Assembly: GCA_030272155.1 (NCBI GenBank)
Contig: CP126195.1
Location: 744,001 to 808,000 of the forward strand
Direction: 5' to 3'
From: Tetradesmus obliquus
Lineage: Eukaryota; Chlorophyta; Chlorophyceae; Sphaeropleales; Scenedesmaceae
DNA length: 64,000 nt
Shown here: piece by piece, positions 36,776 through 58,161 of the stretch
How the letters are laid out: every line of letters begins with the position of its first letter
Position numbering within the stretch: position 1 is the stretch's first letter
Translations under genes and position numbers: made by a program
Notes under the pieces: model-generated
The model's input: only the letters and a program-made list of their open reading frames with translations
Told to the model about the DNA's origin: nothing
Databases searched by the model: none

Positions 36776-37114
36776 AAATATTTATGCATTATACCCCAGC
36801 ATAAGCCTATGTAAGCGTGCCAGCAACTGCAGACATACGTATGTATACTCTACCTCTTGGCCTTAATGACCAGAGCCTCCTGATATGCAAGCAGTGCTGT
36901 GCCCCTCCCCCCACACACACACCATGCTTCATTCAAGCTGATAGTGATCAAGTGCTGGTACCTGAGTAGTACAACAACGCAAGCGTGAGTAAACTGTTCT
37001 GTCCATTGCTGCAGGTCTGAATAGCTGACTGCAACGTGCCCCATGCTGTGTCACGGTGTGGTATGGCTGCTGTGTGGCTGAGCATCATTGACTGGCGTGA
37101 TTATGCATAATGGC
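36776..37114. other. Short intergenic stretch
   Basis: Lies between the satellite and the point where homology of the minus-strand SET gene ends. Includes a CA-rich patch near 36908-36921. No gene seen. Confidence 0.5.
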
Positions 37115-37309
37115 AGTGAATATCTCCTGCATATCTTGCCAGGAATCTGACTGCCCACCACTGCCAGCTGCTGCAGCACCAGCAGCAGCAGCAGCAGCAG
37201 CTGCACCAGTGCCATGGCTGGTGCCAGGTGCTGCTGCGCTGCTGGCGCCTGCAGCCTTTGCCTCAGCAGCAGCCTTCTTTGCTGCTGCCGCCTGCGCTTG
37301 CCACTCCTC
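37115..37309 (-). pseudogene. Former coding sequence after the premature stop of the two-module SET gene
   Basis: Downstream of the TAG at 37310-37312 the same frame stays open and still matches the paralogue: EEWQAQAAAAKKAAAEAKAA, then Ala/Gly-rich sequence, then SDSWQD. The paralogue reads EEWQAQAAAKKAAAEAKAAG ... SDSWQDVVHWVKEHGAV. Homology ends after SDSWQD at about 37115, which marks the edge of the inverted duplication. Confidence 0.75.
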
Positions 37310-40300
37310 CTACTGCTTCACCAGCAGCGACACCTGCTGCTGCACAGCCTCCTGGTCAAGACCATACGACTTGATCAACCGCTCGATCTCTGCTTCCAGC
37401 GCTGCAATGCGGCGCTGGCGCCACACGCGCATCTGCGCAAGCAGCATGCCGCCCCTGTCGTACGGGGATGGGTTGACCGCTGCAGCAGCGTGGTGTCCCT
37501 CAATGGAAGTGAGGTTGGTGTGGCGCACGACGAGGCGGGAAACCTCTGCCAGGGCCTGCTGGGGTGTTCCTGCAAGCAGAATATGAGCAGCAGCAGGGGA
37601 CGGATGCAATGTACAAACCAGCGTAATGTCAAAAGACAGGTTCGCATCGTTGACGGCAATGGCAGCGGCAGTTGACTGTCATACTAAACTGGATGTGGAT
37701 TCAGCCGCAGCGACCGCCAACACTTTGGCATTGCAAGGATTAATGCTGAATGCATGGCATGAGCTGGTGATGTGTGAAAGGATGTCGACACCATGTGCAA
37801 GGGGCAGCCAGCAGTGTCGTGGAGCATGCCTGACACGAGTGCTGCATACACCAGGGATGCATCAGAGCAAGCTGAGGATGGATCACCACCTGTACCAGGC
37901 GGCCTTGAAGCTGATCAGCCATCCTGCACTACCAGCTCACCTGAGAAGGCCTCCGGTGCTTCATGCCCACTCTTTGGCGGCGCCAATGGCTGCTTGGGAT
38001 CAAAGTCATGTCGGTCCATGCCATTCAGCTCCAGCCTCTCTGCCCTTCCTACTGCTGCTGTTGCAATTGTGTTGTCCTGCAGCAGCACCCCATACTGCAG
38101 CAGCGCCACGTCAGGCAGCAGGTAGCCGTAGCTGCTGCACACCTCCTGCCCTGCTGCCACATCAGCTCCTGCAGCCCAGACGATGCACAGGTCATCCTCT
38201 TCCGCCCCTGCCTCCTGCTGCGGCTCCTGCCCTGCTGCTGCCTGCTGTGCTGCAGCGCTGCCTGGGCAGTAGTTGAGGTAGTCAGCGTGGGGGCAGTTGT
38301 TGTTGACCTGGTGGCTTGCCAGGCCCATGAGGGGCACCATGAAGCTGCCGTACTCGTACGACACCAGCCGCGCGTTGAGCTGCGGGGGCGAGGGTGTTTG
38401 CAGGAAAGCAGCCAGCAGTCAGGAAATGTTGCGTAGGGCTATTGAAGTGATGCAGCATGGATTGCACGCCGCGCTATGCAAGCAGCAGAGTAGGTACGTG
38501 CTGAGTTTTGTGCATGCATAACTCATGCATGTACGAAACGACGCTGCACATCCAGGTTACATTACTTGCGAGCAAGAACTCCGTTGTTGCAAAGCACTTG
38601 CCACACACTGGAGGGTCATGTAAGGCACCATGCTGGGCCTGCTGCCCTTCTTGCCTGATAGGTCTAAGGGATTCGTAGTTGGGGGTTCCACCAGGGGTTT
38701 GTAACCAAAAACCCCAACCTGTTTCCCCTCATGTCATGCTGTGCCGCCCCTCTCACCAGTCCTGCTGCATGGCGCAACTCGTGCAAAGTCAAGCTGCTGT
38801 CAATTGCCTCGATTGCTGGCCTGTGCTTGTCCCAGGCAATGACAAGCTCTGCTTGGTATGCGTTGATGCCAGTCTCCTGCAGCCAGCAACAGTGCGACAA
38901 GCATATTAGGTATGCCTCATCTTGTCATGCATTGCATGGCGGTCGACACTGTAGAAAAAGCTGCTCAATTGCCGCAAGCTGACGTATCCAACTTGCAGCC
39001 GAAACGTTGTACTAGCAGCTGGCATCACATCCACATGGGTACTGCATGGGTACTCACCACTGCAGGGTCTTGAATGAGCCGGAGATAGTCTGGTGGGATG
39101 CCATACAGCCCTCCGACTGTGCCTAGCGGTGGCAGTGCGGCATACAACGAGCGCCAGAAGGCAGCCGTGCTGCTGCTGCTGCCGCTGCTGGCGTCTGCTG
39201 TGGCTCTGCCTGCTGCTGCCTGCTCTGACTGCTGATGCATCTCCAGCATAAACCGCACAGCGATGTCCTGCAAGCATCGAATTGCACACAAATGCCAGCA
39301 TACATTGGAAGGCTTGTCAGCAACGGGCACCTGCTGTTGTCAGACTTCTTGTAAAAGGACACACTACAGGGTCCTGCGGAAGTTGATGCCACTAGCTTAA
39401 GACACACCAAGAAGGCAAGCTGCTGTTGCAGTTCTGTTGTGGCTGCTCTGCAGGTGCAGCAGGATGCAGCAAGGCTCACCGCCATGCCTTTTGGACCAGT
39501 GGCGACTCCAATTGTGTGCTTCAGGGGCATCACTGCCAGCGCATCTCCTTCTTTTACATCCCTGGTCGCAAACACTGCGCTTGGCGGGAATCCTGCAAGC
39601 AGAGCTGCTGGATGGGTGCTGCTGCTGCATGTGCCGCGTGCTGTGGCGTCAGCATTGCAGGACCCTGTGTCTGTGGTTGATTTGACCGTGACGTTCAGCT
39701 GCGGCACAGACACAAGCAGGTGCGGCAGGACACAGCAGGGTGCGGGGCCAATGGCGTTGTTGCTAAGGCTGAATCTGTAATTTGCTTGCCTCTCAGAGTA
39801 GAGGGAGAAGGGAGGAAAATGATGCCCAGCATATTGAAACCTAGCCGCACATGCATCTCAATTACTGAACAGCTGTGCGGCAACACAGCACAGTAGATCA
39901 CATGCACATGTCACTCGGCTTTTAGAGCATGTGTGGGCAGCCCACCTGAGCGCCCTGCTTCTGCAGTGCAGCAGTGAAGCTATCATAAGCCGACTGCGGC
40001 AGGCCTAGGCCCAAGCTCTGCAGCTGCTGCACCCGCTCCTCTGCTGCTTGCAGCCGCTGCAGCTGCCTTTGCAGCCTCTGGATTTCTGCAGCGATGGCCT
40101 CCTGCCGCTGCCGCCTCCATGTCAGCATGGCCTGCAGGTAGCAGCCGCTTTCATCGCGAGGGTGTGGCTTGATGGCAGCTGTCATTTCTGTGTCACGTTT
40201 GACCAGCGTTGACTGCAACAGCTGCAGGCGGTACAGCTCTACAACAATGGCAGAGGGAGTGCCTGCAGGAAACAGCACAACAGCACAAAGTATCACACTC

Positions 40301-43300
40301 GTTCTCAGTGATCAAAAGCATGTGATGCGTCCTACTGCACTGACCAAGCAGGCAGCACCATCTCCATCACATAAACAGCATGTGTTACAAACACATATGT
40401 ACATCACACAGCAAACTCTGGTGATGCGGCTGCATTGCTAGTTAACGCTGGTCAAACGCACCTTCAAACAGCAGTGGCCCATGCTCGCCTACTGGGGGCT
40501 CCTCCCAAGGCTCTTCTGGCTTGAAGTCATGCCTGTCAAGCCCTGCAGCAGCACAGATGCATGAAACACGATTGAGCTGCAGTACAGGGTGTGATGCACT
40601 TCAGATGCCTAGCTGCTGATGTGATGCACCGCTTTCAATTCCTGCGTTCAAAACCACGACAGTCTCCTCACCTGATAGCCGATGCTGCACAGACATTGAC
40701 CCAGCCCCAGACTGCAGGAAGCCGTACTGCAGCAGACTCCTGTCCTGCAACATGAACTGCAGCATACACACATCATGCCCACAACGTCAGCATATGAACC
40801 TGTGGAGCGCTTGGTACGTGAGGCGACTGGTGCAGCATACAGCAAACTGTCGTCTGTGGCCAATGCCAGCTGCCATGCAAGAGGACGGCCGACAGAGAGA
40901 TTTCTGCTGCAATCACAGCACATCTGTGACAGCTGAACTCTGGCAAGTCTGGTGGTGTATGTTCATGAACTCCAACTGAGTTAGCAGCAGACATCAGTGT
41001 ATGCCGCAGGGCCTTCCCTAGGCTGGCACTGCCTGAAGTTTGCTGCTGCTTGCTGCATCTGGCACACCTTGTAGAAGATGCAGACTTCATCACCCGCTGC
41101 GAGCGGCTTCCCTGCACGCCACACCATGCAGCGCTCGCTGCTGCCTGGCCTGCATGGCTCCACGGGGTGTGTATTGTTGCAGTCGTTCCTGCAACGCAAA
41201 TGGTGAGGGCACAGCAGCTCAAGACAGGGTGCATGTCATTGCAGGCGTTCCTGCAAGGCAAGTGGTGAGTGCACCGCAGGGCTTTACAGGGTGCATGTTG
41301 TTGCAGGCGTTCCTGCAAGGCCAATGGTGAGGGCATGGCGCAGACCAGCAGATCAGCTCAAAGACAGGGTTTTTGTTGCTGCAGTTGTTCCTGCAAGCCG
41401 GGTGAAAAGCATGTGGCGCAGATGAGGTGCATGATCTTTTTGGTTCAAGCTGCTCTGACTGCAAGAGGTTGCAGTGAAGATGCCAGGTTCACAAACAATG
41501 TGTCTGCCGACAGCAGCGAACGCTGCTGACATCAAGCACACTGAAGCAATCTTGTTTGTGTGGCAGTTGCCGCCCCACTAAGCTGGAGCACCTCCAGCAG
41601 CAGCTTTGACCATATCTCCAATTATTCTGCCAGATGTACACAGACAGCAGACGGTCGACTACTGCTAATCAAACGTTGACCCACCGGTGGTTACCCATGT
41701 CAATCAGAGGCACCATGAGCGATCCATCATCGCCCGTCTCGATCAGGCGCGTCACTAGTAAGGCCATGGCATAGCGCAGATCCTCCAAGCTTGTTTCAGG
41801 GCCCAGTTTTGCCTGCAGGGTCTGTTTGTGCTGCTGCCAAGCTTCTTGCAGCAAGTCTTGGTTGGCAGCAATGGCCCGCTCCTGCAAGCGCAAGGCCAGG
41901 CAGAGTCAGGGTTGCCTCATGTGGGCGGTTGCATCAAGGCAGCGCCTGGCACAGCACAGCCCTATAAACCCCGCAGCGCCAGGGGCTCTAGTTCCCATAC
42001 CGTTGACAAGAGTTTGTCCATCGGAGCATCCAGCTGGTACTGTTTATGGGACAGCTGCGGCCGCAGCTGCCTAGGGTGCATGCGCAGCTGCCACATATGC
42101 CCTAGCAGGGCCGCTTGCAGGAGCAATGCCTCACCATTTGCGGAATGCTCTGCATGTATAGCTCACTGCAGCTTGCGAGTCATCAAGTGAGAGTGCTTGC
42201 TGGGAGTGGATGTATCCAGACAATTGCTCACCGTAGGTGGGTTCTGCACCAGTGGAAGGTATGACTCTGGGAAGCTGTGCATCGTCCATATCTCTGACCG
42301 TTTGGGCACGGTTTGGTAGTAAAGTTGTAGGGGACTGCTGCTGTTGGCCATGTCCAACAACAGGTGTACAGCAGCCTCCTGCAAAGCCACATTGTAGGGT
42401 GTACATATTGGTACTGCTTGCACAACGTCAAACACAGGCTAGCGTGTTACTGAAGCGGACGCCCTGACTGCAATCTCGTGCCAGTGGCAGATGCTATTGC
42501 ACGTACAGCAACATCTGGCAGATGCTGTTGCACGCACTGCAGCAGTTGGCAGATGCTATCGCTCGCACTGCAGCAAAACATCACTGGCGTTGGTGCTGTC
42601 AGGCTTGTTACAGTTACTCTCCAGTGCATATCCTCTATGTCAGGTGAAGGCAGAATATGCTCAGCCAACTGCGGTGGATATTGTCATACCAAATGCCAGC
42701 TCCGTTCAGCTGCGCCACACCAGTCCACACTGAATCTGGCGTCATCAGGAATGATTCTGCAGCTGTCACACAAGCGCATGGCTATGGCTGGCTGCAAGCG
42801 CAGTAACAACATCTCAGCGGCATGACTCACCTCTTGGACAAGCAGGTCAGTGTCTGCAGCTCTGAAGGCAATGGACAAGGGGACTTTCGCCAGCACGTCA
42901 CCTGCACCAATGTGCCAGCAGCAGCAGCAGCAGCAGCAGGAGCAGCGGAAGGAACACAAACATCTGCATGGTTTCTGCGCATGTTGCGTCAATGCTGCTG
43001 GGTCAGAGTGCTGCAGCTGGATGAGAATGCTGCATCACACAGTTCCGCCTGCACACACTTAGTTGGCTTCACGCAGGTGGAACATTGAGTATGGTGCATT
43101 TGCTCTGCATTCAACTGCTCAGCACCATGCACATATACAGTGCTAGCTCAAGTTTGGGAGGTTTGGTAGTTCACGGGGTTGTGTTTTTTACTTTGGTCGT
43201 CACCAAGGCCATCACACACCTACAGCAAAGGCCCTGGGTGCCCAAGTGCTCCTGCCAGCCTCTGCTGTGTCCTTCACAACAACATTTACCTGCGAGGCGC

Positions 43301-43856
43301 ACAGAAGCCAGTACTTTTTGAATCACAACCTGTTAGAGGGTTACCAACTGGCACATGCATCGGTGCAAGTTATCAACTACAGCGGAAGAGGTGACGCGGG
43401 TGTCAACGTGTGCTTTCTGTCAGGGTGGCGGTGCTGCCTCTCCTGACAGTTGGTTGGTTAGCAAAGGCATGAACCCAACCATGAGCACCATATGATACAT
43501 ATGTATACGGACTCAAGACCAAATAATGCACGCAATGGGCTGGCCACAGCACAGCAGAGTGCGTATGTATGAGCAGTTGCGGGTGTGTCATGCCATGTGT
43601 CTGATGTTGGTCGTACCTCCCCGCCTTTTTCCACAATCCAACTGATGATGCGCTCCACTGGAGGCCAGCTCTGTTTGTCAGGCAAGTTAAATGCTGCAAC
43701 TGGCGCCTCCTGTGTCAAATGCTTGCCAGCAGCTGTGCCTTGCGCCACCTGCAGTGCTGCTGCTGATTGTGAAGTCCCTAAAGTCAAGCAGCACGCCGAC
43801 AGCAGAGCTGTCACTAAGCTAATTCTACTAACGGAGAGTCGCGTACGATCAGGCAT
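37310..43856 (-). CDS. Two-module SET-domain (Rubisco LSMT-like) protein, truncated paralogue
   Basis: Fourteen exons join in phase: 43856-43617, 43289-43220, 42901-42831, 42378-42232, 41881-41685, 41188-41068, 40756-40672, 40542-40462, 40262-39946, 39698-39480, 39267-39058, 38876-38757, 38379-37941 and 37569-37310 (2,577 nt, 858 aa). Exon sizes equal those of the plus-strand paralogue in ten of fourteen cases. The leader has a hydrophobic stretch ISLVTALLSACCLTLG. Module 1 has the SET N-part (GDVLAKVPLSIAFRAAD) and MVPLIDMGNH with Asn-His intact. It continues with AGDEVCIFYKFMLQDRSLLQ, YGFLQ and a helical arm WRRQRQEAIAAEIQRLQRQL. Module 2 has VPLMGLASHQVNN, where Ser replaces Asn. The reading frame ends early at TAG 37310-37312. 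Expected activity is AdoMet-dependent protein lysine methylation, but the substrate is unknown. Confidence 0.85.
41163..41400 (-). repeat. Four copies of the acceptor edge of exon 6 (two-module SET gene)
   Basis: Exon 6 starts at 41188 (NDCNNTHPVEPC). Upstream in gene orientation the acceptor CAG plus ~22 bp of exon recurs with starts at 41250, 41312 and 41400, reading like NACNDMHPV, NACNNMHPVKPC and a decayed form. Spacing is 62, 62 and 88 bp. The plus-strand paralogue has no such copies at the matching place (46631). Confidence 0.85.
42481..42577. repeat. ~33-bp minisatellite in an intron of the two-module SET gene
   Basis: Three tandem units containing TGGCAGATGCTRTYGC and GCACTGCAGCA. 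It lies between exons 3 and 4 of the minus-strand gene and has no obvious counterpart in the paralogue. Confidence 0.75.
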
Positions 43857-44231
43857 GGCTGCCTGCTGCCTCAGTTCTCAACCACCTCCCGCTCCGGTGG
43901 TTTTGCCCGACTGCCCACGTGGTTGCACTACCGAACCGTGAAAAAGAATCCACTACAACTAATACTGACAATTCTTTTTCATTGTGGTAACCTGCAGCTG
44001 ACTCCAGGCAAAGGCAAGGACGCTGACTGTTGTCGCTCGTTCCTCAAGAAGTGACATGCCGTTCAAACTCCCCATAACACCATAACCAAATGCTGTCAGT
44101 TCTTCTTTGCAGCTACTACAAGAGCTATTTGTATGATATGCTAGTTTGACCGCTGAATTTGCACACAAGAGGGCAGTTGGGCAAGCTCACCGGAGCGGGA
44201 GGTGGTTGGGAATCTAAGGCAGCAGGCAGCC
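43857..44231. promoter_or_regulatory. Bidirectional promoter between head-to-head SET genes
   Basis: 375 bp separate the two start codons. Both ends are near-perfect inverted copies: CATGGCTGCCTGCTGCCT reading in from 43856 mirrors AGGCAGCAGGCAGCCATG ending at 44234. Homology continues ~60 bp inward through CCACCTCCCGCTCCGG and its complement CCGGAGCGGGAGGTGG. The unique centre is about 43930-44160. The repeated ends are the shared 5' untranslated and proximal promoter sequence. No specific box is recognised. Confidence 0.8.
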
Positions 44232-45096
44232 ATGCCTGATCGCCATAGAGGTACCGGAAGCACAACATGCTACATTTCGGCGTTGCTGTGGGCTTGCTGC
44301 TTGACACTACGGACTTCGCAAGCAGCTGCGGTAGCAACGGCAGCAGCAGCAGCAGCAGTACTGCATGTGCCGAAAGGCGCCTCTGCTGGCGAGCGTTTGG
44401 CGAAACAGGCGTCACTTCCAACGGTAGATGTAACTGATGGAGAGAGCTGGCCCCCAGCTGAGCGCATGAGAAGCTGGATTGTGGAGAATGGAGGCGAGGT
44501 AAGACCCACATGGCATCTCATGCTTGTCGCTGATCAACCACATGCACTACATGCAACCTGCCGTGCTGTGTGATGGCATCAGAGGGCTAGCAACACGGCT
44601 GTTAAGTTAAATGTTGCAGTAACCCACGAATGACGGTCTATGCAAGGGTGCGATGTCCATGGCCTGGCTAAATCACTGTCGCATCAACTGTCAGCAGCAT
44701 CCGCGGCACCAGAGAGCATGTGGACACTCGCATCACTTAGCCTGCATGTGCAGCCCAGAGCTGGTCAAAATATATGGCAGGACTAGTCGTTTCTTTGTTT
44801 GCAACTGTGCTGGCTGCTGTGTGCCGCGCAGGTCAATGTGGTTGTGAAGAATACAGCAGAGGCCGGCAGGAGCACTTGGGCACCCAGAGACTTTGCAGTA
44901 GGTGTGTGACGGCCAACAGAGCAAAGCAAGGAATCACCAACAGCAGCCATAGCAAAGCAGTGCTTAGGTATTGAAGAACCACATCATAACCACTATGAGG
45001 CTGCAGTCTGTGGTTTGCCAGCATTAATGCAGCAGGAGCAGAGGTCAAAGCAACAACACCGCTGCTGGCAGATCCCTTTGCAATGCTGCTGGCACC

Positions 45097-45133
<37 letters not shown>

Positions 45134-48100
45134 GCTCATTTGCAGGTGATGTGCTGGCGAAGATTCCTCTCTCCATCTGCTTCAAAGCAGAAGATGCCGA
45201 CCTACTGGTCAAACATGTGAGTGCCGTAGCTCAAGCATGCACTGCAAAGCCTGCAGCCAGCAACAGCAATGTTTTAGCGCATTTGGTGCAGCACTGACGC
45301 TATGGCAAGCATAGAGGAGTCAACCGGAGTGAGCAAGAATGGTTTCCGTGATGCTTGCTGCATTGGACACACCGAGTGCTGCCTTGGCCTGCAGAAGCAA
45401 TGCAGTTGTAGCGAGTTCAAGCCAGGCACGCTGCAGCAGCCAAAATGCCAGTGATGTTGCGGGATGGCAGCATTGGCAGCAGTGATGCATGAACTGCTGC
45501 TGTGCTGCATGCGCGATTGGCATCAACCGCTCCCACGAATGTGCAGCAGTCGCCTTCACTTCAGCACCGTTCTCTTCACGCCCCCTGCACTCTAAAGCCG
45601 CTTTCTGCATATGTCAGCCATCCAGTAACATCACATGCACTTTGTGCTGCAGGCTGCTGCTGCACACTTGTGGTCCGACATCAACAACAGCAGCAGCCCT
45701 TTGCAGCCTTACTACCAGGCCCTGCCAAACAGGTCAGAGGTGTGGGCCATGCACAGCATCCCAGAGTCTTATCTGCCACTGGTGCAGAACCCGCCAACGG
45801 TGAGTGAGCAGCTGGCGATGAATTTGCCGGCAGCAAAAAGGGTTTGTGCAGCTAGCCAGCAAGTTTGCTAGGCTCGCAGCTGACAGTGCTACCGACAGGA
45901 TAAGAAGCACTCACCAAAAAAAATCAACAAAGCAAGTGCATATGTTGCAGCTGCTGCTGACAAGGCTGTCCCAGACGCACTTTAATAACTGGCTGGTAGA
46001 TCCATACCAAGACGTGGGACGACTGCATCTGCTTCAAAGCTTACCGGGTGTACTATGCCAAGTGCTGCCCTCATGCTGTCACACAATTGTCTGCTTATTT
46101 CTTGATGACCCTGGCACACTCTTGCGCTTTGCAGGAGCGTGCCATTGTCGCCAACCATGACAAGCTGACAAACAGCTGGCAGCTGCATCAGGAGCAGCTG
46201 CAGGCAGCGCTGGGCCCTGAGACAAGCATAGAGGACTTGCGTTACACTATGTCATTGCTGGTCACGCGCTTGTTTGAACTGGGGGAGGATGGGCTGCGGC
46301 TGGTGCCTCTGCTGGACATGGCCAACCACTGGTGAGTTTGACCGAAGTTTTACCATGTTTGACCATAGTTGACCAGCAGATGAAATGCTGTTGGCAATTG
46401 AGGGGGTGGCAGACACTGCAGTAGGGTCGAGTGCACTGCTGGAGGCGAACAGGCAGAGTGGAGCAGCAACCCTGTAGCCAGGGATGCTGTAAATTCATAC
46501 ATGTCAGCAGCGTTGGCTCGTATCTCCTGTCACCGTCACAGCATGGACATAGCTGTTGAAGCTGATGCAAAGGTAGCAGCACATGGTACCGCCTGCTGAC
46601 GTGTGCATGCGCTGTCCAACCGGCTTGCAGGAACGACTGCAACCACACACACCCTGTTGAGAAGTGCAGGCCAGGCAGCAGCGAGCGCTGCGTGGTGTGG
46701 CGGGCAGCAGAGCCCCTCGCTGCTGGTGATGAGGTCTGCAACTTTTACAAGGTAATGCTGGTGCAGCAATCAGCAGCAGCCAGCTCAAAGTGCTTCAAGG
46801 GATCCCTGGGAGGTTTACTGGGCTTGGGCCATAAGCCCATGTCTTTTTGCCAAAGTACAGTACACCAGCTCGCACCAAATCTGATTATGCTGTAAGAGCC
46901 AGGCCAAGTTCTGCAATTTGCCTCAGCTGCTATGCAGTTTATGCGCTGCTGGGCGCAGCACTGCTAGCAGTTTGTTTTCATCACTGAACCTCTGGAGCGG
47001 CAGCTTGGCACAGAACAGCATCATTATTGCGCAGCTACATCGCATGCTGCGTTAACCACGGCGTCGACGAAGCACTGCACGCGTGATGCCTGGTGTGTTC
47101 TGCATGCTGTGTGCTGCAGTTCATGCTGCAGGACCGGAGTGTGCTGCAGTATGGCTTCCTGCAGTCTGGGCCTGTGGAGCACCAGCTGTCAGGTGGGGAG
47201 CCTGAGTTTGAATATGGGTCAAACCTGCTACTGCTGTCACGGCACACTTTTGGTAACAAGAACATGACAGTTGAATGTGGTGCGTGCACCACTCCCAGAA
47301 CCTCACTAAATAGCTCAGTTCTGATGCATGCCTTCACATTCAAATCTGTATTGCATGATTGTGCATCTACTGCTGCTGCAGGGCTTGACAGGCCTGACTT
47401 CAAGCCAGAGGATCCTTGGGAGGAGAAGGAGGCAGGCGAGAATGGCCCGCTGCTGTTCGAAGGTGAGTTTGACCAGAGCTGCAGCTTGGTCGACAGACTG
47501 TCTTTGTCACGTGACGCACAGTGTTGCCAGCACTGTTGGGTTCTGCCTGCCTGGTCAGCACAGCAGCACCGAAGATGGACTGCCAGCAGTTGCTATGCAT
47601 GCCCTGCAAAAAGAATGCTTCCCACTCAAAAGATCCTGTGTTGCTGTGCTCTTCTCCTGCAGGCACACCCTCTGCCATTGTTGTAGAGCTGTACCGCCTG
47701 CAGCAGCTGCAGTCAACGCTGGTCAAACTTGACGCAGAGCTGACACCTTCCATCAAGCCGCACCCTCGCGATGTCAGCGGCTACTACCTGCAAACCATGC
47801 TCACATGGAGGCGGCAGCGGCAGGAGGCGATCGCTGCAGAAATTCAGCGTCTGCAAAGGCAGTTGCAGCGGCTGCAGGCAGCTGAGGAGCGGGTGCAGCA
47901 GCTGCAGAGCTTGGGTCTGGGTCTGCCGCAGTCGGCTTATGATAGCTTCACCGCTGCACTGCAGAAGCAAGGAGCACAGGTGAGCCGCCTAAAGGCGCCT
48001 TTGCAAGCACTGTAGTTGCGACAAGTTGTACGTTTGACAGTACCTGCTTTGCTGTCCTACTATGCTGGAGTTAAGCATGTTATGAGCACTCTATGAGCAC

Positions 48101-51100
48101 ACAAGAAGCTTGGTTGACGGCATTCGACACCATACAAGCAGCACATCAAATGTAATAATGTCAAATGTATATCCCATCTGCAAGTCCCCACACATTGCTG
48201 CATCCTATGACAGTGCTGTCTCCTGCTCCTCCTGTGCCAACTGTTGTGCTGCAGCTCAACGTCACTGTCAAATCCACTGCAGACAGAGGCTACTGCAAAG
48301 CGGATGCCACAGCCAGCAACACATGCAGCAGCCGCATCCAGCCAGCAGCACTGCTTGCAGGATTTCCGCCGAGCGCCGTGTTTGCAACCAGGGATGTCAA
48401 AGCGGGAAATGCGCTGGCAGTGATGCCTCTTAAAAACACGATCCGTGTTGCCAGTGGTGCTGAAGGCCTTGCGGTGAGGGCTGGCAATCACATTTTGCAA
48501 CTGCATCGGAGGCAGGACACATCTGCCCCGGCAATTTGCTTCAGCTTCAGCGTTGCTTATGCTGCGGCTGGTTATTTGAAATTTGGCATGTTCCAGCGCT
48601 GCATCCTTTTGGCGTTTCTCACATCAACAAGCACTAGCACTGCCAACAACGCCACAAGTTTGGGTGATGTGTGTATCTCTGCGTGACTGCATGTGCTTGC
48701 AGGAAACTGCTGTGAGACTCATGCTGGAGATGCATCAGCAGGGATCGCAGGCTGCAGCAGGCACTGAAAAGGCAGACGCCAGCAGCGGCAACAGCACTGC
48801 TGCATTCTGGCGCGCTTTCTATGCTGCACTGCCCCCGCTAGGCACCGTTGCGGGAGTGTTTGGCATTCCACCAGACTACTTGCCGCTCATCCAAGAGCCA
48901 GCAGTGGTGAGGCATCACACTATATGTACCTGATGTGATGTCAATGTCAGCTGGTAGCAAGATGTGGCAGATATTGCTGAAAGGCTGCAGCGCTCTGCCA
49001 GGTCGCCAACCGGCTCCCTGACGCGCCAACTTGGGCGGTGCACAGCCTGTTGCGCAGCAGTAGTCTCCTCAACTGCCCAGTGACAGCGCCTGTAGTCTGC
49101 ACTCCTTTTGGTATCACCGCTAACGTGCGGTAATTTTGTAAGGCGTGCCTTCAAACGCACAGGCTGCTTTGGTTCTCAATGCTGCTCTGCTCGTTTCCGC
49201 TGCGGGTTTGCAGGAGGCTGGCATCAAGGCGTACCAAATAGAGCTGCTCAATGCCTGGGATAAGCACAGGCCAGCCATTGAGGCAGTGGACCCCAGCCTG
49301 ACACTGCAGGAGCTGCGCCATGTAGCAGGGCTGGTGAGACGGCAGCAGCAGCAGCAGCAGCTTGTGGACTCATGAGCTGCATCATGTTTCAGATACCTGG
49401 TAGGCAGCAAGGATCCGATCAATCTTTGACTGTTGTTGTGTCCTGCAAGCGGCTACCTGACAGCTGGCTGCTTCTCTGCAAACATCCTCGCCCCTGCAGC
49501 TGAACGCGCGGCTGGTATCGTACGAGTATGGCAGCTTCGTGGTGCCCCTCATGGGCCTGGCAAGCCACCAGGTCAACAACAACTGCCCCCACGCTGACTA
49601 CCTCGACTACTGCCCAGGCAGCGCTGCAGCACAGCAGGCAGCAGCAGGGCAGGAGCCGCAGCAGGAGGCAGGGGCGGAAGAGGATGACCTGTGCATCGTC
49701 TGGGCTGCAGGAGCTGATGTGGCAGCAGGGCAGGAGGTGTGCAGCAGCTACGGCTACCTGATGCCTGACGTGGCGCTGCTGCAGTATGGGGTGCTGCTGC
49801 AGGACAACACAACTGCAACAGCAGCAGCAGGCAAGGCAGAGAGGCTGGAGCTGAATGCAATGGACAGGCATGATTTCGATCCCAAGCAGCCCTTTGCACC
49901 CTTGAAGAGTGGGCATGAAGCGCCGGAGCCCTTCTCAGGTAAACAGACCTGGCTCGATTGGACCATAGGTTTGAAGCTGCTGATTTCAGCCGCTGGTGCC
50001 CATCCTCAGCTCCCTCTACGCGATCGCCATAGTCTGATTGTGCTTGCAGCTGCTGTGGTTGGCTGTCACATGCAGCACCACCATCGCAGCCAGCTACTGC
50101 CACTACAGCTGACTTAGCATTTGCAGCATCACACTAGACCTTTTGGCGCCTTACTGCCCTGCTGCTGCTCGAATCCTGCTTGCAGGAACACCCCAGCAGG
50201 CCCTGGCAGAGGTTGCCCGCCTCGTCGTGCGCCACACCAACCTCACCTCCATCGAGGCGCACCACGCTGCTGCTGCGGTCAACCCATCCGCGTACGACAG
50301 GGGCGGCATGCTGCTTGCGCAAATGCGCGTGTGGCGCCAGCGCCGCATCGCAGCGCTGGAAGCAGAGATCGAGCGGCTGATCAAGTCGTATGGGCTTGAC
50401 CAGGAAGCTGTGCAGCAGCAGGTGTCGGTGTTGCTGCTGGTGCAGCAGCAGCAGCAGCAGCAGGAGGAGTGGCAGGCGCAGGCAGCTGCAAAGAAGGCTG
50501 CTGCTGAGGCAAAGGCTGCAGGTCCCAGCAGCGCAGCAGCAGCAGGCAGCCAGGGGGCTGCTGTGAATGGTGCTGCTGCTGGTGGTGATGAGGAGTCTGA
50601 CTCCTGGCAGGATGTTGTGCATTGGGTGAAGGAGCATGGAGCTGTGGTGAGCTGCCCTGCTTGTGCAGCATCTTTTGAAAACTGTGCGCATGAAGTGAGG
50701 CAGTGCTGTCATTTGCTTGCTTGATGCTAATGTGGCAGCTGTTATACCCAATGGATGGACCTTAGCCCTGGTGCGCCTGCAGCCTGTCCTGCCCGCGCCT
50801 GCTGCTGCGTGCTGTACAGCTTTTGTATGAGGTCAGTCAGCTGAATCAAGCAAGGAGACGTCTTTGTGCAGACGCAAGCGCAGCATTGACCTTGCCGTCT
50901 ACTGCATCATCGTAGTTTGTGTAAGGAATCCATGTGTGCATGTTCTTACTCCTTGCAGGTCAACGTGGACGTGCGCTATGTGAGCCCAGAGGCGGGCCGT
51001 GCAGTGTAAGCCTTGTGCAGCCTGCTGCTTCGTTACCAACATCACATCCCTGCCTGTTCTTGCTGATTTCCGGCACAGGTCAATGTTGATGTGCGCTATG

Positions 51101-54100
51101 TGAGCCCAGAGGCGGGCCGTGCAGTGTTCACGCAGCGCGCCATGAAGAAGGGCGAGCTGCTGGTGGCACTGCCGCTGGACCTGGCCTTCAGTGCGGCCAA
51201 GCACGGCAGCAACGGCCCCAATGAGGTGAGTTTGTGTTTGCGAGTGTCACTCACATGTTGACAGATGAATGTAGTGGGGGCCTTGGGATGTGTGAAGGAA
51301 TGGCTGCTATTGCTGGTGGCGCTGCCGCTGGACCTGGCATTCAGTGCAGCCAAGCACGGCGGCATTGGCCCCGATGAGGTGGGTTTGTGTGAGGCAACAG
51401 GATAGTAAGCCCTGTGAATTTTTGTGCTCACAGCAGAACCCTGCACTGGCCTGCTTCGGCAGGCTTATTGTGTCTTGCACAGCCCCATTCCTACAGCACT
51501 ATGCAGTGCCGCTGCCCGCCCATGCCCAGCCCTCGCCGCTGCCGCTGCTGCTCTGGATCTTGTCTTGCTGCGTTGTGCTTATCACATCCTCCGTGCAGCT
51601 GGCTGCCGCCAACCTGCTAGGCATGATGGCGGACCAGTCCAGCCCCATGCAGACCTACTTCGCATCACTGCCCACAAAAGAGGAGCTGCTGTCACCTTTG
51701 GTCAGCATGCCGGAGGAGTACCTGCCGCTGCTGCAAAGTGACTTGGCGGTGAGTGGCAGCTCAAGTATTGAGGTTGCTGCCAGATTGTTGCACAGCGCCG
51801 TTGGATGACCTGATCAACGCACTGCTGCTGCTGTACCTAGGAAAAGGCAGCAACAGTAACAACAGGGTTACCTGCCGGCCATGTACTGCCAGTCCACTGC
51901 GTTTCGTCAACTCCAGAGCCAGTAGTGCAATGGCTGTAGGCCGCGCCAGCTGTTGTTATGTGACAGCTGCTGAGCCAGAATGTTGTAGCCGATCTCTCTT
52001 TAGCACAGTTTGTTTTCCTATAGTTTGAGCTGAAAGGCTGAATACGCGTTGGCACAGCAGCATTCTCCTGCACTGCTGTGCATCCTTGTCATCCAGTTGT
52101 TGTTCAGACACATTTGCCTGCTACACAGATGCTGACTCCGAAGAGGGGTGGACATGTGCTTGCAGGTCGAGTCTGTCAACATCTTCCAGCAACGTGTGAA
52201 TCAGTTCTGGGAGGCGTACCAGCCAGATTTCCAGGCGCAGGTGCCTGGTGTTACCTTGGAGGACTTCAAGTGGGCAAGGGCGCTGGTGAGTGCTGCTTGC
52301 TGGTCAATGTTTGACCAACATATTACTGTCTGCTGTGCTTGAGGACTGCAGGGCATTACATCAAGGTGTATGACTGCTGTATTGCACTGTTTGTGCCTGC
52401 ATGCTGCTTGTAGTGCATGCCTGACAGTCAGACCACGCATCACTGCGGCTGAGTGCCAGCCCAGACACACTTCCGGCCGAGTTCTGCTAGTTCTGTTGTT
52501 ATGCTCACTAAGGCCTGTGCCTCTGCTTCTTTTCCTGCTGTTTGTGCTCTGTGCAGCTTGCCACTCGCTTCTTTGGCGGTGATGCAGAGCACGGCAACAT
52601 CCTGTGAGTGCGGTGTCAGTCAAACACATACAGTGCAAACGGCGCAGCACGCGCTTAAAACCAGCAATGCCTGAAGCAAAGAACTCCTGCCAGGACAGCA
52701 GCTTGTGCCCCAGGACCAACAGAACTGCTGGCGGATGTGTGCCCCTGGCAGCTCTTGCTGATGCAGCACATATGGCTGTAGCACCTTGTGCCAAGATCCG
52801 GTCAACTCACGTTCATTCCAGCACAGCGATACCGGTTCATGAGCCCGCCTGCTGACACAACTTCTAAACATGCAACCCGTTGTTTTGCTGCGCAGCCTGC
52901 CACTGCTGGACATGGCCAACCACATGCGGCACTGCCCCAACTACCAGGTTGTCTCGCCCTGCCCAACAGATGAGAGCAGGCGCTGCGTGCACTGGCTGGC
53001 CGGCAGCTACCTGCTGCCTGGGCAAGAGGTGTGCACCTTCTACCAGTTCATGCTCAACGACAGGACCATGCTGCAGTACGGCTTCCTGCAGGTGAGTCCC
53101 TTAGTAACATGTTATAACATTGGTTTCAATTATCATGTTATAACAGTGGCTTGAAATATCATGCTGGCTGGCTGGCAGCTACCTGCTGCCTGGCCAGGAG
53201 GTGTGCACCTTCTACCAGTTCATGCTCAACACATGTTGCAGTACGGTTTCCTGCAGGTGAGAATATGTGTAATATGTTACAACAATGGCTTGAACTATCA
53301 TGCTGGCTGGCTGGCAGCTACCTGCTGCCTGGTCAGGAGGTGTGCACCTTCTACCAATTCTTGCTCAACGACAGAACCATGTTGCAGTACGGCTTCCTGC
53401 AGGTGAGAATGTTTGTAATGGGTTATAACAGTGGTTGACTTTGTTATGCTGGCTGGGCGGCAGCTACCTGCTGCCTGGCCAGGAGTTGTGCACCTTCTAG
53501 CAGTTCATGCTCAACAAAAGGACCATGTTGCAGTACGGCTTCCTGCAGATGAGTCCATTTGTAACATGTTGTGTTATAACAGTGGTTTGATATCTACTGC
53601 TGTCTGGCTGGCAGCTACCTGCTGCCTGGCCAGGAGGTGTGCACCTTGAAGCGAGGCTTGTTGTAAATAGTGAAACAGTGTAACTGCTTCTCTTGTCCCT
53701 GAACTGTTGCTGCTGTCGCTGCTGGCGTTATTGTTGAGCCTGCTTGCTGATTGCCTGTATGTGCTTGCTGTGCAGTCTGAGATGCCAGAGCTGCACACCC
53801 TGGACCGAGCAGACTCGGGCAACGTGTCAACGGCATGGACGCAGTACCATGGCAACAAGTTTGGCCCGCCGCCGTTCAACGGTGGGCTGGCTTTATGTGT
53901 CCTCAGAACTCTGACAATGACACCCTTTTGCTGAGCACGTGCTAATATGCGTTTCACTCTGGCATTTGTGCACTGGTTCACGGCTCGTTGTACGCTAACA
54001 AAAAGCCAGTGGAGACTGTGAAACGTGCATTGCTTACTGCCCTGAATCACTCGGATGGGTGATACTGCCTTGTTGCAGGATCCCTCTCAGAGACGCAGGC

Positions 54101-56656
54101 AGAGCTGGCACGCCTGAGGGCGCTAGCAGCTGAGCTGGTATCAGGCGATGCCGCTGCAGCTGCTGCAAAGCCAGTTGCAGACGACGCAGGCGGCCGCCTG
54201 CTCAGCTTGGGGCTGCGGTGGCGGCAGATGCGCCAGGAGGCAGTGAAGCGTGAAGTGTTGCTGCTGGAAGCCAGGGAGCAGCAGCTCAAGGCCGGCAAGC
54301 TGCCTGGTGTTGTTGAGAGGTTCATGTCCTGGCTGGCAGAGAACGGAGCACAGGTAGGGTGACGGTACTGACATGCCTTGATGCTGCGTGTAGCCAGATT
54401 GCTTTCGCAGCCGCATTGTGTCTGTATCCCGTGCGTGCATGCCTTTCTTGTAACAGCGCTGCTGCTGCAAGATGCCGCTGCTCTGTGATGTTGCGTTGCT
54501 GCGCTGCAGGTGCATGAAGCGGTGCAGATCAGGCAAGATGGCGGCAGCTACAGCTTGGTTGCCACTGGTGTCATTGCAGCTGGGCAGCACCTTGCAGTGA
54601 TCCCTCTGAAGACTGCTGTCGCTGTCTACACTGGAGACTTGCTGGTGGGTGTTTGATAATGTATGCCAATGCGTTTGCTGGTGCATGCAATGTGCTTGAC
54701 ATTGCCTTGTGCATTTCCTGCAAATCTGGTTTACAGGAATCACCAGCTGCAGCTGCCCTTCTGGAGCAGAAACAAAATCATAGTGACAGCTGGTGCATAA
54801 CACAGTACCAGCGCTGAAATGGCATTTGAAATGGCGCCACCAAGTGCATGTGCCTGTGCCACCTGCGCTGCATGGTTGAATAACAGAATCATGCCCTCTG
54901 CTGCTCTTACATGCTTGCAGGATGAGGCTCCCCGGCTATGGAGGGATATGATCCACCCAGCCAGCCCCAGGCGGCCCTACTGGGACATGCTGCCAGCCAA
55001 TGGCAGCGTGTTTTCGTACTACAACCTGCCGCTGCAGTACCTGGGGCTCATCCAGCATGCATCTACGGTGAGCTGATGGGCTGAATGCCACTGAATTCAA
55101 ACGGTGTGAGCGGAGCAGCAGGAGCAGCGGCGAGCTGCAGTGCAGGTGGTGTAGCAGGCTGCGATATGTGTACTTGGCAGCAGCTGGGCGTGATGTAAAG
55201 CTGTGCATAGACACCCCTGAACTCGCAAGCTGGGTGTTCAGTGCAGATGCAAATTGCTGTGCATGTGTCACAAGACCACCCCAGGAATTCCTTTGCAAGC
55301 TGCAACATATCATACCCCGACATGTCCAGACCCTCACAATTTTGGAGTGTGCAGCATATGTGTGGCGAACAACCTGCTCTGTGCCGCTGTGCTATGCAAC
55401 ATGTGCTTCTGCTTTCATCCTGCAGGAGGAGTCCATTGCTGACATGCGTGGCGACATCGAGGCGTTTCTGCAGGACAACCCAGAGATCCTTACCAAGGCA
55501 GAGATGACAATCGTGGATGTGCTGCATGTGCTGTCTCTGGTGAGTGCTAAGCAGTGCCAGGCAGCAGCGGCTTTAGTAAGCCCACAGGCCGCGAAGGCGT
55601 TTCAATTAGCCAACTGAAGATACCATGCAAAGCATCTGACACTGACATATCAGCTGGAGTGTACCATACTTGATGCAACACATCAAATGCAGCAACACCA
55701 CCCAGCTTGCCCTGCTGCTGTCTGCATTGCAACATCTCCTGCAGATCGCCATACGTGTGTATGAGTTCCAAAGGGAGGGCACTTTCATGATTCCATTTGT
55801 TGACCTGGCCAAGCATTGCAACGGCTGCACCAACCGCCTGGCAGTGCACCGCTGCGGCCCGATTGATGCCTCGCCCAGTCCTGCAAGTGATGCTGCTGTC
55901 ACCTCATCAGATGAGCTATGCATCTACTGGAAAGCTGGCTCTGCCATTGCAGCAGGCGAGGATGTGTGCATGGGACATGGCTACCTGCTGCCTGACCGGG
56001 CGCTGCTGCAGTATGGCTTTGTGCTCAGTCAGCAGCAAGCAACTGGCAAGGCAAATAACGGGGCGGGACAGCAGCAACAGCTGCTGGAGTTGAGTGCAGT
56101 TGACCGCCATGACCTGCCCACTGCTGTAATGCCATGGCAGTACCGGCTGGAAGCCAAGGGCCCACCCCCGGCATTTGCAGGTGAGTACTGATACCACGTA
56201 TGAGTCAGGTTTATGCAATATCTCCCTGCAGGCTGTTACCACTTGGTTGCCTATGCCTTGCTGCAGCACTGCAATGCTGCCTGTGCGCTGCCTGTGGTAT
56301 AGCAGGGCACGAGGACGCATGATGCTGTACAACAAGCTTGCAACTATTGGCATTGTTGCAGCTACCAGTAGTCCTCGGTCAATTTACGAAGGGAACTCCC
56401 AAGAGCAACATCTGCATGCGTGCCTATGTCGCTGTTTGCAGGCACATCCAAGCAATCAGCAGCAGAGCTTGAGCGCCTCGCCAAGCTAGCAGCAGCTCTA
56501 GCTGCGGGCGATGCTGCTGCAGCTGCTGCAAAGCCAGCACCTGGTGATGAGTCAGGGTTGCTGCTGAGCATGATCAAGCAATGGAGGCAGCAGCGGCAGC
56601 AGGCAGTGGCTGCTGCGATCAAGGGCCTGCAGGCATCAGCATCTGCAGTGGTATGA
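44232..56656 (+). CDS. Tetra-SET protein: four tandem SET/Rubisco-LSMT-like modules
   Basis: Twenty-six exons join in phase: 44232-44498, 44832-44901, 45146-45216, 45653-45799, 46135-46331, 46631-46751, 47120-47192, 47382-47462, 47663-47979, 48255-48473, 48703-48906, 49214-49333, 49500-49938, 50186-50646, 51079-51225, 51599-51748, 52166-52285, 52557-52603, 52896-53091, 53776-53881, 54079-54353, 54510-54644, 54921-55067, 55426-55539, 55745-56180 and 56442-56656 (4,875 nt, 1,624 aa). A hydrophobic leader precedes module 1 (~72-448), 2 (449-929), 3 (930-1276) and 4 (1277-1624). Each has an N-part like KKGELLVALPLDLAFS, a core, GxxVCxxY...LQYG, and a helical arm with a WRxxRQE-like motif. SET Asn-His: LLDMANH in module 1 (~249-250) and module 3 (1092-1093); GLASH in 2; DLAKH in 4. 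Module 4 also has GHG for SYG. Family activity is AdoMet-dependent lysine methylation; substrate unknown. No stop or alternative gene end lies between modules, but a cDNA is needed to exclude separate transcripts. Confidence 0.85.
50959..51378 (+). repeat. Both edges of exon 15 of the tetra-SET gene duplicated outward
   Basis: The genuine exon is 51079-51225. Its acceptor and first ~48 bp (VNVDVRYVSPEAGRAV) are copied upstream at 50959-51009, ending in an in-frame TAA. Its last ~65 bp (LVALPLDLAFSAAKHG..., donor GTGAGT) are copied downstream at about 51312-51378 with donor GTGGGT. The middle of the exon is single copy. Confidence 0.9.
53000..53646 (+). repeat. Five-copy array of the donor edge of exon 19 (tetra-SET gene)
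   Basis: The genuine edge (GSYLLPGQEVCTFYQFMLND, then RTMLQYGFLQ, donor at 53092) is followed by copies at 53165-53256 (internal deletion), 53304-53402 (intact frame, donor GTGAGA), 53453-53548 (in-frame TAG, donor lost) and 53606-53646 (truncated). Ends are spaced 165, 146 and 146 bp. All lie downstream in the intron before exon 20. Confidence 0.9.
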
Positions 56657-57052: not shown

Positions 57053-57457
57053 TCCATTACTAAAAAGAAATACGGTCCGTCAGTCAGTCAGAAGCCTGGC
57101 TTAGGACCTGGCCGTTGAACCCCAGGGCGATTCGAAAATGTGCAGAGGAAGCAAACGAGAGCGCGAGAGCAACAGATGAACGTTAGTGTAGAAATGTGCA
57201 ATCGTTTCGAAGCCGTGGGCTGGGTGCAGCGGTGTTCTGTTGCTGGGGTGCTATGCAAAACATCACGGGCTACAGCAGGCAGTGAGGCAACAATATCTGA
57301 AAAGCGATGGCGTGAGACTATTAGGCGAAAGGCGAACGGGATAGGGATGATCATGGGTGGCTTCTAAGATTGCAGGTGTTGCAACTGCTGCCCTGAGCAA
57401 CAAGGGTGCCTCCCGTAATTACTAGATAGGAGTGACGTAGTCACGGGAAACTGCTAG
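57053..57457 (+). mobile_element. Non-autonomous Helitron-like element, copy 1
   Basis: 405 bp starting TCCATTACTAAAAAGAAATA and ending GGGAAACTGCTAG. It has the Helitron hallmarks: 5' TC, 3' CTAG, and a 13-bp palindrome GTGACGTAGTCAC whose end lies 9 bases before CTAG. The base before the element is A. There are no terminal inverted repeats and no coding capacity. The 3' end abuts copy 2 directly (CTAG then TC). Family assignment is inferred from these end features; no Rep/helicase is present. Confidence 0.75.
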
Positions 57458-57876
57458 TCCATTACTAAAAAGAAATACGGTCCGTCAGAAGCCTGGCTTA
57501 GGACCTGGCCGTTAAACCCCAGGGCGATTCGAAAAGTGCAGAGGACGCAAACGAAGGCGCGATAGCAACAGAAAAAGTTAGGGTGGGCACTTGAAATCGC
57601 TTCGAGGCCGTGGGCTGGGTGCAGCGGTGTTCTGTTGCGGGGCGCTACTGCCAACATCACGGGCTACAGCAGGAACAGCAGGCAGTGAAGCAACAATAAT
57701 TTAACAAGCGATGGCTAGAGACGAATACATTAAGCGAAAGGCGCACGGGGTAGGAATGATCATGGGTGGCTTCTAATTGCAGGTGTTGCAGTTGTTGCCT
57801 TGAGGACAGCACCACCAAGCAAGGGTGCCTCCTATCCTTACTAGATAGGAGTGACGTAGTCACGGGAAACTGCTAG
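57458..57876 (+). mobile_element. Non-autonomous Helitron-like element, copy 2
   Basis: 419 bp, same ends as copy 1 (5' TCCATTACTAAAAAG, 3' CTAG at 57873-57876) and the same GTGACGTAGTCAC palindrome. The next host base is T, so the pair sits between A and T, the known Helitron target preference. It differs from copy 1 by scattered substitutions and indels; for example the TCAG triplication near the start of copy 1 is single here. Confidence 0.75.
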
Positions 57877-58161
57877 TATACGCTGATTGCGCTTGAAATC
57901 ACTGTCACACCTAACACCTCGTCACACGTTTCAAATAGCTGCGGAGGATGTACGCGTCAAGCCATGGATGGAACCCATGTTTCTTATGGAATGCTAGCAC
58001 GTAGTTTAAACATGCAGTATATGCGTATGTGAGTTCGTTGCAGCGACTACGGCAGAGCCCTAGCATCGATTTTCTCGCCTGAACTCTTTGCATCAAACGC
58101 CATTATGTTTCCTTGACAAATTGAGATTCTCTGGTAGTGGCGCTGCCACAAGTGCGGCAAC
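57877..58161. other. Upstream region of the protease gene
   Basis: 285 bp between the Helitron-like pair and the proposed protease start. It probably contains the promoter. No recognisable box. Confidence 0.4.

Follow-up and report, generated by a model that had tools for sequence, protein, structure and literature searches.

Rubisco LSMT (a plastid enzyme), SETD6, and PAP7/pTAC14 (a subunit of a plastid complex, the plastid RNA polymerase) are single-module proteins, and to our knowledge enzymes of the SETD3/LSMT class occur in the cytosol, the nucleus and the plastid. The actin-histidine N-methyltransferase SETD3 also has a single module; its cofactor contacts include H279 (through the main chain), Y313 and F327, and its C-terminal LSMT-like domain comprises residues 350-475 (PMC8537074). 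A green-algal chain with more than one SET domain is the Su(var) class IV-C protein of Chlamydomonas reinhardtii, but this protein is histone-type, carries two SET domains together with SAD_SRA and PreSET, and has another layout (PMC5725981). Here we analyze a gene of the green alga Tetradesmus obliquus that departs from the one-module norm of the SETD3/SETD6/LSMT class in having four modules (M1-M4), with cofactor-pocket residues kept in M1 and M3 but, it appears, lost from M2 and M4. The gene lies in a stretch of 64,000 nucleotides (contig 5, CP126195.1, 744001-808000; GC content 0.562; hereafter the window) of a 17-contig genome totalling 104,662,953 bases.

The sequence of the chain is already public, under the name SET domain-containing protein and with no other description (UniRef A0A383VSU2, T. 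obliquus, 1549 amino acids (aa), from a cluster of 14 member sequences; hereafter P0001). No account of it was found in the open-licence literature on tandem or multiple SET domains (the available parts of PMC5725981, PMC6971037, PMC3814326 and PMC11376236) or on these algae. An earlier prediction for this locus (hereafter the original prediction) held that no such tetra-SET chain had been described, which agrees with that literature, although the chain itself had been deposited.

Gene model and integrity of the chain

The predicted 26 exons and unbroken frame of 1,624 aa were reproduced by our own exon model: on the plus strand, at 44232-56656 of the window, all introns are GT-AG, internal stops are absent, and the coding length is 4,875 nt including the stop codon. 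P0001, a second public record of this gene that likewise has four modules, also gave 26 exons when spliced onto the window; 24 of the 26 are the same as ours, and the remaining two differ at their outer ends only, because P0001 starts at an internal methionine and the local alignment breaks off slightly short of the end, by a few residues. The P0001 model lacks the first 78 residues of the window protein. Over 1,546 aligned positions the two proteins are 98.3% identical (identical residues: M1 327/332, linker 20/20, M2 427/430, linker 54/57, M3 341/344, M4 351/360), with the greatest divergence in M4 and no broken module. The modules extend over aa 74-413 (M1), 432-846 (M2), 914-1254 (M3), and 1260-1617 (M4). 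A more distant relative, HT031_006815 of Scenedesmus sp. PABB004 (P0002; 1164 aa, ~43% identity, colinear with modules 1-3), yielded 16 exons that are the same as in our model and 10 that differ. With the same spliced-alignment script, the plus-strand protein recovered the 14 exons of the manual model of a minus-strand paralog, the last one nine bases short.

At the start of every module is a helix-like stretch whose last residues are G-A or G-G, and the first helix of modules 2-4 is encoded by the exon that closes the previous module (exons 9, 14 and 21). The original prediction had named 47979, 50646 and 54353 as points where transcripts might end and restart; these are indeed exon ends, but the exons concerned already hold the first helix of the next module. 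No in-frame methionine was found upstream of exon 15 (12 open bases) or exon 22 (21 open bases), two were found within 96 open bases upstream of exon 10, and no fresh signal peptide was seen in the gene model ahead of modules 2-4. Between the plus-strand gene and the minus-strand paralog, the ratio of nonsynonymous to synonymous substitution rates (dN/dS) is 0.25 over 850 codons; at the junction of modules 1 and 2 (aa 400-460), 59 of 61 residues are identical and dN/dS is 0.044 (dS 0.50), so that the joint itself is constrained. We infer a single full-length transcript from the genomic sequence, and the four modules are very probably made as a single chain.

Partial exon copies are present within the gene. 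In intron 19 (53136-53660) the 3' half of exon 19 recurs as four incomplete tandem copies; three of them are 80-93% like the copy at 53275, the spacing is 139-151 bp, and some end (by eye) in GT donor-like sites, so decoy or alternative exons are possible. Exon 15 is flanked by partial self-duplicates at 50956-51007 (94% alike, running into a stop) and 51311-51390 (90% alike).

Relatives, paralogs and origin of the modules

The protein searches scored about 8,000 candidates sharing most words with each query, and the relatives found are a lower bound. At least P0001, P0002 and P0003 were found with the whole chain as query, P0002 found itself and P0001, and a module profile (A1, built from 8 of the 18 modules compared below) found P0004, P0005 and P0006. 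P0004 (Scenedesmus sp. NREL 46B-D3, 575 aa) extends from the N-terminus through module 1 into the beginning of module 2. P0003 (EukProt gene5019-5260_t), a 2,595-aa protein of mostly coiled-coil appearance and perhaps a fused gene model, carries one odd-type module close to its end. P0002 shares with the window protein the signal-peptide-like start and the cysteine spacing described below, but its public model has three modules, the first without the N-H motif (perhaps a retained intron). As regards the layout in other algae, a colinear three-module protein is present in a second genus, and among the relatives found four modules are seen in P0001, from the same species.

The minus-strand paralog lies head-to-head with the gene and contains modules 1 and 2 only (m1 and m2). 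Past its stop codon the linker that leads to module 3 can still be read (EEWQAQ...SDSWQD), whereas neither M3 nor M4 was matched in 30000-37500 beyond exon 14 (E up to 1); the paralog therefore appears to be a truncated duplicate of a longer gene. A genome search with modules 1-2 as query, again a lower bound, identified two tandem two-module genes on contig C6 and one recognised module each on C9, C14 and C17 (9-18 kb fetched), which were modelled by spliced alignment with provisional N-termini. The second two-module gene (C6:2302545-2308990) has an in-frame stop in the LQYGF motif of its spliced model (aligned with X at this position) and is possibly a pseudogene or mis-spliced.

We compared 18 modules, the outgroup row being uncounted: six even-type (M2, M4, m2, S2, C6a2, C6b2) and 12 odd-type or single (M1, M3, m1, S1, S3, N1, X1, C6a1, C6b1, C9, C14, C17). 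S1-S3 come from P0002, N1 from P0004, X1 from P0003, and C6a1/2, C6b1/2, C9, C14 and C17 from the paralogs on those contigs. In the phylogenetic tree, ten odd rows fell on one side (support 80/88) and five M2-type rows grouped together (99/98), S2 with M2 and m2 (100/99) and S3 with M3 and C17 (100/99). The even modules did not form one clade in the best tree, yet such a clade was not rejected (approximately unbiased (AU) test, p 0.321), which makes an origin of the chain by doubling of an M1-M2 pair plausible.

Module homology and relation to SET proteins

The claim of four tandem modules in one gene is borne out by mutual homology (BLASTP E <=1.9e-26 in 12 of 12 ordered pairs of M1-M4) and by introns common to all four modules at alignment columns 17, 116, 192 (phase 0) and 452 (phase 1). 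A further intron at column 247 occurs in three of the four (M2, M3 and M4), M2 and M4 share the same full set, and the sharing of intron positions among modules exceeds chance expectation.

The odd-type profile A5, built from seven of the 12 odd-type or single modules including M1 and M3 (m1, N1, S1, X1 and C6b1 left out), matched SETD3 best (E 5.7e-14), then SETD6 (1.6e-9), Rubisco LSMT (4.5e-9) and PAP7/pTAC14 (5.3e-9), a SET-type chain of the same class. These structure matches cover the SET and iSET part only and end near position 240 of 341, the C-terminal LSMT-like domain of SETD3 being unmatched. M3 alone matched SETD3 with E 9e-5 in a profile search. The even-type profile A4 (four of the six even modules including M2 and M4; m2 and C6b2 left out) matched no SET structure, its single match (E 0.18) being an unrelated protein, and M4 alone matched no SET structure in the profile search either. 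The even-type and odd-type profiles match each other with probability 100 (E 3.7e-71, 332 columns).

Whole P0001 scored 33.4 bits (E 6.6e-8) against Pfam SET (PF00856), over the cut-off of 22.4, with the best stretch in module 1. Scanned singly, module 1 (14.7 bits) and module 3 (14.4 bits) stayed under the cut-off and modules 2 and 4 gave no match; whole P0002 (18.2 bits) and P0004 (19.2 bits) and eight single family members (best E 0.0066) were also under it, and a six-frame scan of the genome gave 17 matches, none within the window. The substrate-binding domain of Rubisco LSMT (Rubis-subs-bind, PF09273) was not matched in the four modules (E<=1), in eight modules (E<=10) or in three whole proteins (E<=1). 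Thus, of the predicted SET plus substrate-arm unit repeated four times, the four homologous units stand but the arm went undetected in every module scan, and the predicted kinship with SETD3, SETD6 and Rubisco LSMT is supported by the odd-type profile and by P0001 but does not extend to modules 2 and 4 in the structure search. Helices are predicted with low confidence for the C-terminal region of the modules, which may be a diverged substrate arm.

Cofactor-pocket residues

In SETD3, N278, for which we presume a role in the pocket, directly precedes H279 in the aligned D-M-C-N-H stretch. The equivalents of N278/H279/Y313/F327 read NHYF in M1 and M3, the same residues as in SETD3, and SHYV in M2 and KHHF in M4. 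NHYF is also found in m1, S3, C14, C17, N1 and X1, NHYY in C9, SHYV in m2, RRYF in S1, NPLA in S2, DHYY in C6a1, DHFF in C6b1, and RHHM in both C6a2 and C6b2. The N-H-Y set is intact in nine of the 12 odd-type or single modules versus none of the six even modules (S1 was scored as not intact although its N-H stretch resembles a retained intron), counts that are not 18 independent events because the module rows are related. That the set was kept in 9/12 despite strong divergence suggests selection on the pocket. Four working methyltransferase units, as would follow from the original prediction, are not supported, since M2 and M4 lost pocket residues and match no SET structure; these two modules are probably not catalytic, and we lean towards M1 and M3 binding the cofactor.

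N-terminus, cysteines and glycosylation sequons

Four cysteines with the spacing 9/variable/16 are present in 17 of the 18 modules (X1 has a gap there); the spacing is not present in the outgroup P0005 and is absent from the aligned stretch of SETD3. These cysteines may form disulfides. The best N-terminal 12-residue hydropathy is 2.16-2.70 in the plus-strand protein (2.16), the minus-strand paralog, P0004 and P0002. With a threshold of 2.1, chosen after the values had been seen, these four of eight N-termini pass, versus 5 of 172 internal methionine positions in the same eight proteins; P0001, P0003, P0005 and P0006 are under it. N-glycosylation sequons number 11 in the plus-strand protein (4.4 expected; 5 of 1000 shuffles had as many) and six in P0002 (1.5 expected; 4 of 1000 shuffles).

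The N-terminus resembles by hydropathy a signal peptide and does not suggest a plastid or Rubisco role. Together with the fixed cysteines and the sequon excess, this start makes it somewhat likely that the protein enters the secretory pathway. In land plants, a Golgi cofactor transporter is known for pectin methylation (available parts of PMC9946043 and PMC12881853), and the idea of a secretory methyltransferase is therefore not absurd.

Proposed mechanism and alternative explanations

We propose that one nuclear gene encodes a four-module chain whose modules would go back to a single SETD3/LSMT-class module, duplicated repeatedly within the gene. M1 and M3, which keep an intact S-adenosylmethionine pocket and the catalytic-type tyrosine, would bind the cofactor and methylate, and M2 and M4, as degenerate partners that each follow a catalytic-type unit, would hold or position the substrate or stabilise the pair. 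The two catalytic-type/pseudo-module pairs would be joined by linkers, probably in the secretory pathway, and the substrate may be, as a guess, a protein of the endomembrane system or the cell wall. A multivalent or self-regulated enzyme is possible. Taken as a whole, the secretory four-module chain with catalytic-type M1 and M3 and partner modules M2 and M4 is the best explanation, with a chance that we put just short of even. A secretory SETD3/LSMT-class methyltransferase in the full sense, i.e., an endomembrane or cell-wall enzyme with two catalytic/pseudo-enzyme pairs in a disulfide-stabilised chain, is more doubtful and is suggested tentatively.

Several observations weigh against this reading. 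The N-H-Y set is broken in three of the 12 odd-type modules (S1, C6a1 and C6b1), M2 retains the tyrosine equivalent to Y313, and, as H279 makes its contact via the main chain, the meaning of the adjacent N-to-S or N-to-K change depends on the role that we presume for N278. AlphaFold2 models of P0004 and P0002 (3-row alignments) reached a mean predicted local distance difference test (pLDDT) score of only 35.2 and 31.8, respectively, and gave no usable fold. The nearest kin of M4 is unsettled, the best tree placing it with C9 (73/64). A secretory address and a cofactor pocket fit poorly together unless the cofactor is imported; the P0001 model is without the signal-peptide part (N-terminal hydropathy 0.89), and the minus-strand paralog shows no clear sequon excess (four versus 2.2 expected; 148 of 1000 shuffles had as many). 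Finally, TGTAA, which we take to be the polyadenylation (poly(A)) signal of chlorophycean algae, is found in each of the three inter-module introns and in eight of 25 introns overall (chance ~0.024, intron lengths ignored), and the nearest one past the stop codon is 2,655 bases downstream.

The main rival explanation is a full chain in which no module is still a methyltransferase and the SET fold now serves as a repeated binding or structural unit stabilised by disulfides, e.g., in the wall or the secretory pathway. The signal-peptide-like N-terminus, the fixed cysteines and the excess of sequons would suit such a protein, as would the pocket residues already lost in M2 and M4 and the scores of singly excised modules under the Pfam SET cut-off; however, whole P0001 exceeds that cut-off, and the N-H-Y set persists in nine strongly diverged odd-type or single modules as if under selection. 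We regard a purely structural chain as unlikely, although it deserves serious weight.

With TGTAA in every inter-module intron and none near after the stop, shortened isoforms are possible, and intronic poly(A) sites might give one-, two- and three-module products beside or instead of the four-module chain. Shorter forms appear viable, the neighbouring paralog and the two C6 genes having two modules and C9, C14 and C17 apparently one. But five of the 22 other introns contain TGTAA as well, the corresponding inter-module intron of the paralog does not (the paralog's stop is also distant from one, by 2,964 bases), and a downstream module alone is hardly possible, with its first helix in the preceding exon and no upstream methionine for exons 15 and 22; this explanation is improbable.

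Still less is to be expected of an ordinary LSMT/SETD3-type enzyme with four modules, located in the plastid or cytosol, that hits several sites of one large substrate: it would account for the profile kinship with Rubisco LSMT, SETD3 and PAP7, but the even modules are degenerate, the substrate-binding domain was not found in the scans, and the N-terminus is, judged by hydropathy only, hydrophobic and not transit-peptide-like. Four separate tandem genes joined by artefact were rejected because the module boundaries sit inside exons 9, 14 and 21, and, although tandem and inverted gene copies occur in the family, the lack of new signal peptides before modules 2-4, the missing upstream methionines of exons 15 and 22 (exon 10 has two), the colinear multi-module protein in another genus and the strong constraint at the 1-2 junction leave this idea largely refuted.

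Features of the locus and its neighbourhood

The coordinates of the gene, its paralog and the region between them are given in Table 1. Downstream of the gene, two copies of a ~400-bp direct repeat (57053-57877, blocks 76-100% alike) gave no Rfam match. The product of the next gene downstream (58160-60000, plus strand) is a subtilase, a 59-aa piece of it matching Peptidase_S8 with E 2.2e-7, and its hydrophobic start lies at ~58162 (by eye). Downstream of the minus-strand paralog, 34500-36800 contains repeated units of the type 'gcttgcaggaggggttgtccacagcagatga' (by eye). A tRNA gene is located at 19180-19259 on the plus strand (Rfam, 51.5 bits), and a scan of seven other open reading frames of the window gave one weak match only, to ATG14, under its cut-off.

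Table 1. Positions in the window of the four-module gene, the head-to-head paralog and the intergenic region.
Feature	Position	Strand	Basis
Head-to-head two-module paralog (modules 1 and 2; 858 aa, 14 exons) with TAG stop within the linker to a lost module 3	37310..43856	-	own model, spliced alignment, module alignment
Shared intergenic region separating the start codons of both genes, 375 bp, inverted-repeat arms	43857..44231	.	sequence, repeat comparison
Exon 1: signal-peptide-like N-terminus (~aa 1-30, cleavage site a guess), spacer, M1 first helix	44232..44498	+	own model; N-terminus like minus-strand paralog and P0004
Exon 2, module 1	44832..44901	+	own model, P0001/P0002 spliced alignment
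Exon 3, module 1	45146..45216	+	own model, spliced alignment
Exon 4, module 1	45653..45799	+	own model, spliced alignment
Exon 5, module 1 up to DMANH motif (SETD3 N278/H279 equivalents)	46135..46331	+	own model, spliced alignment, module alignment
Exon 6, module 1: four-Cys signature, Tyr (SETD3 Y313 equivalent)	46631..46751	+	own model, spliced alignment, module alignment
Exon 7, module 1: LQYGF (SETD3 F327 equivalent)	47120..47192	+	own model, spliced alignment, module alignment
Exon 8, module 1	47382..47462	+	own model, spliced alignment
Exon 9: M1 C-terminal part, linker, M2 first helix; junction under strong purifying selection	47663..47979	+	own model, spliced alignment, dN/dS
Exon 10, module 2	48255..48473	+	own model, spliced alignment
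Exon 11, module 2	48703..48906	+	own model, spliced alignment
Exon 12, module 2	49214..49333	+	own model, spliced alignment
Exon 13, module 2: degenerate pocket (ASH, SYG, YGV), four-Cys signature	49500..49938	+	own model, spliced alignment, module alignment
Exon 14: M2 C-terminal part, Q/A-rich linker, M3 first helix	50186..50646	+	own model, spliced alignment
Exon 15, module 3	51079..51225	+	own model, spliced alignment
Exon 16, module 3	51599..51748	+	own model, spliced alignment
Exon 17, module 3	52166..52285	+	own model, spliced alignment
Exon 18, module 3	52557..52603	+	own model, spliced alignment
Exon 19, module 3: intact DMANH, FYQ, YGF pocket, four-Cys signature	52896..53091	+	own model, spliced alignment, module alignment
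Exon 20, module 3	53776..53881	+	own model, spliced alignment
Exon 21: M3 C-terminal part, M4 first helix	54079..54353	+	own model, spliced alignment
Exon 22, module 4	54510..54644	+	own model, spliced alignment
Exon 23, module 4	54921..55067	+	own model, spliced alignment
Exon 24, module 4	55426..55539	+	own model, spliced alignment
Exon 25, module 4: degenerate pocket (AKH, GHG), four-Cys signature	55745..56180	+	own model, spliced alignment, module alignment
Exon 26: M4 C-terminal part, stop TGA	56442..56656	+	own model; P0001 alignment ends at 56647

Significance

Multi-module chains of the SETD3/LSMT type of SET proteins were not found described in the open-licence literature, and on secreted SET proteins one general review surfaced there. 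In this family the number of modules changes from one to four across paralogs and near relatives, and the introns mark the common origin of the modules. That odd modules are intact and even ones degenerate, as is also the case for modules 2 and 3 in a second genus, provides a natural test of the working of a covalently tied pseudo-enzyme partner. If the secretory address is true, one may ask whether proteins are methylated by SET-type enzymes in the endomembrane system, and SET enzymes of the SETD3/LSMT class would then not be confined to the cytosol, the nucleus and the plastid.

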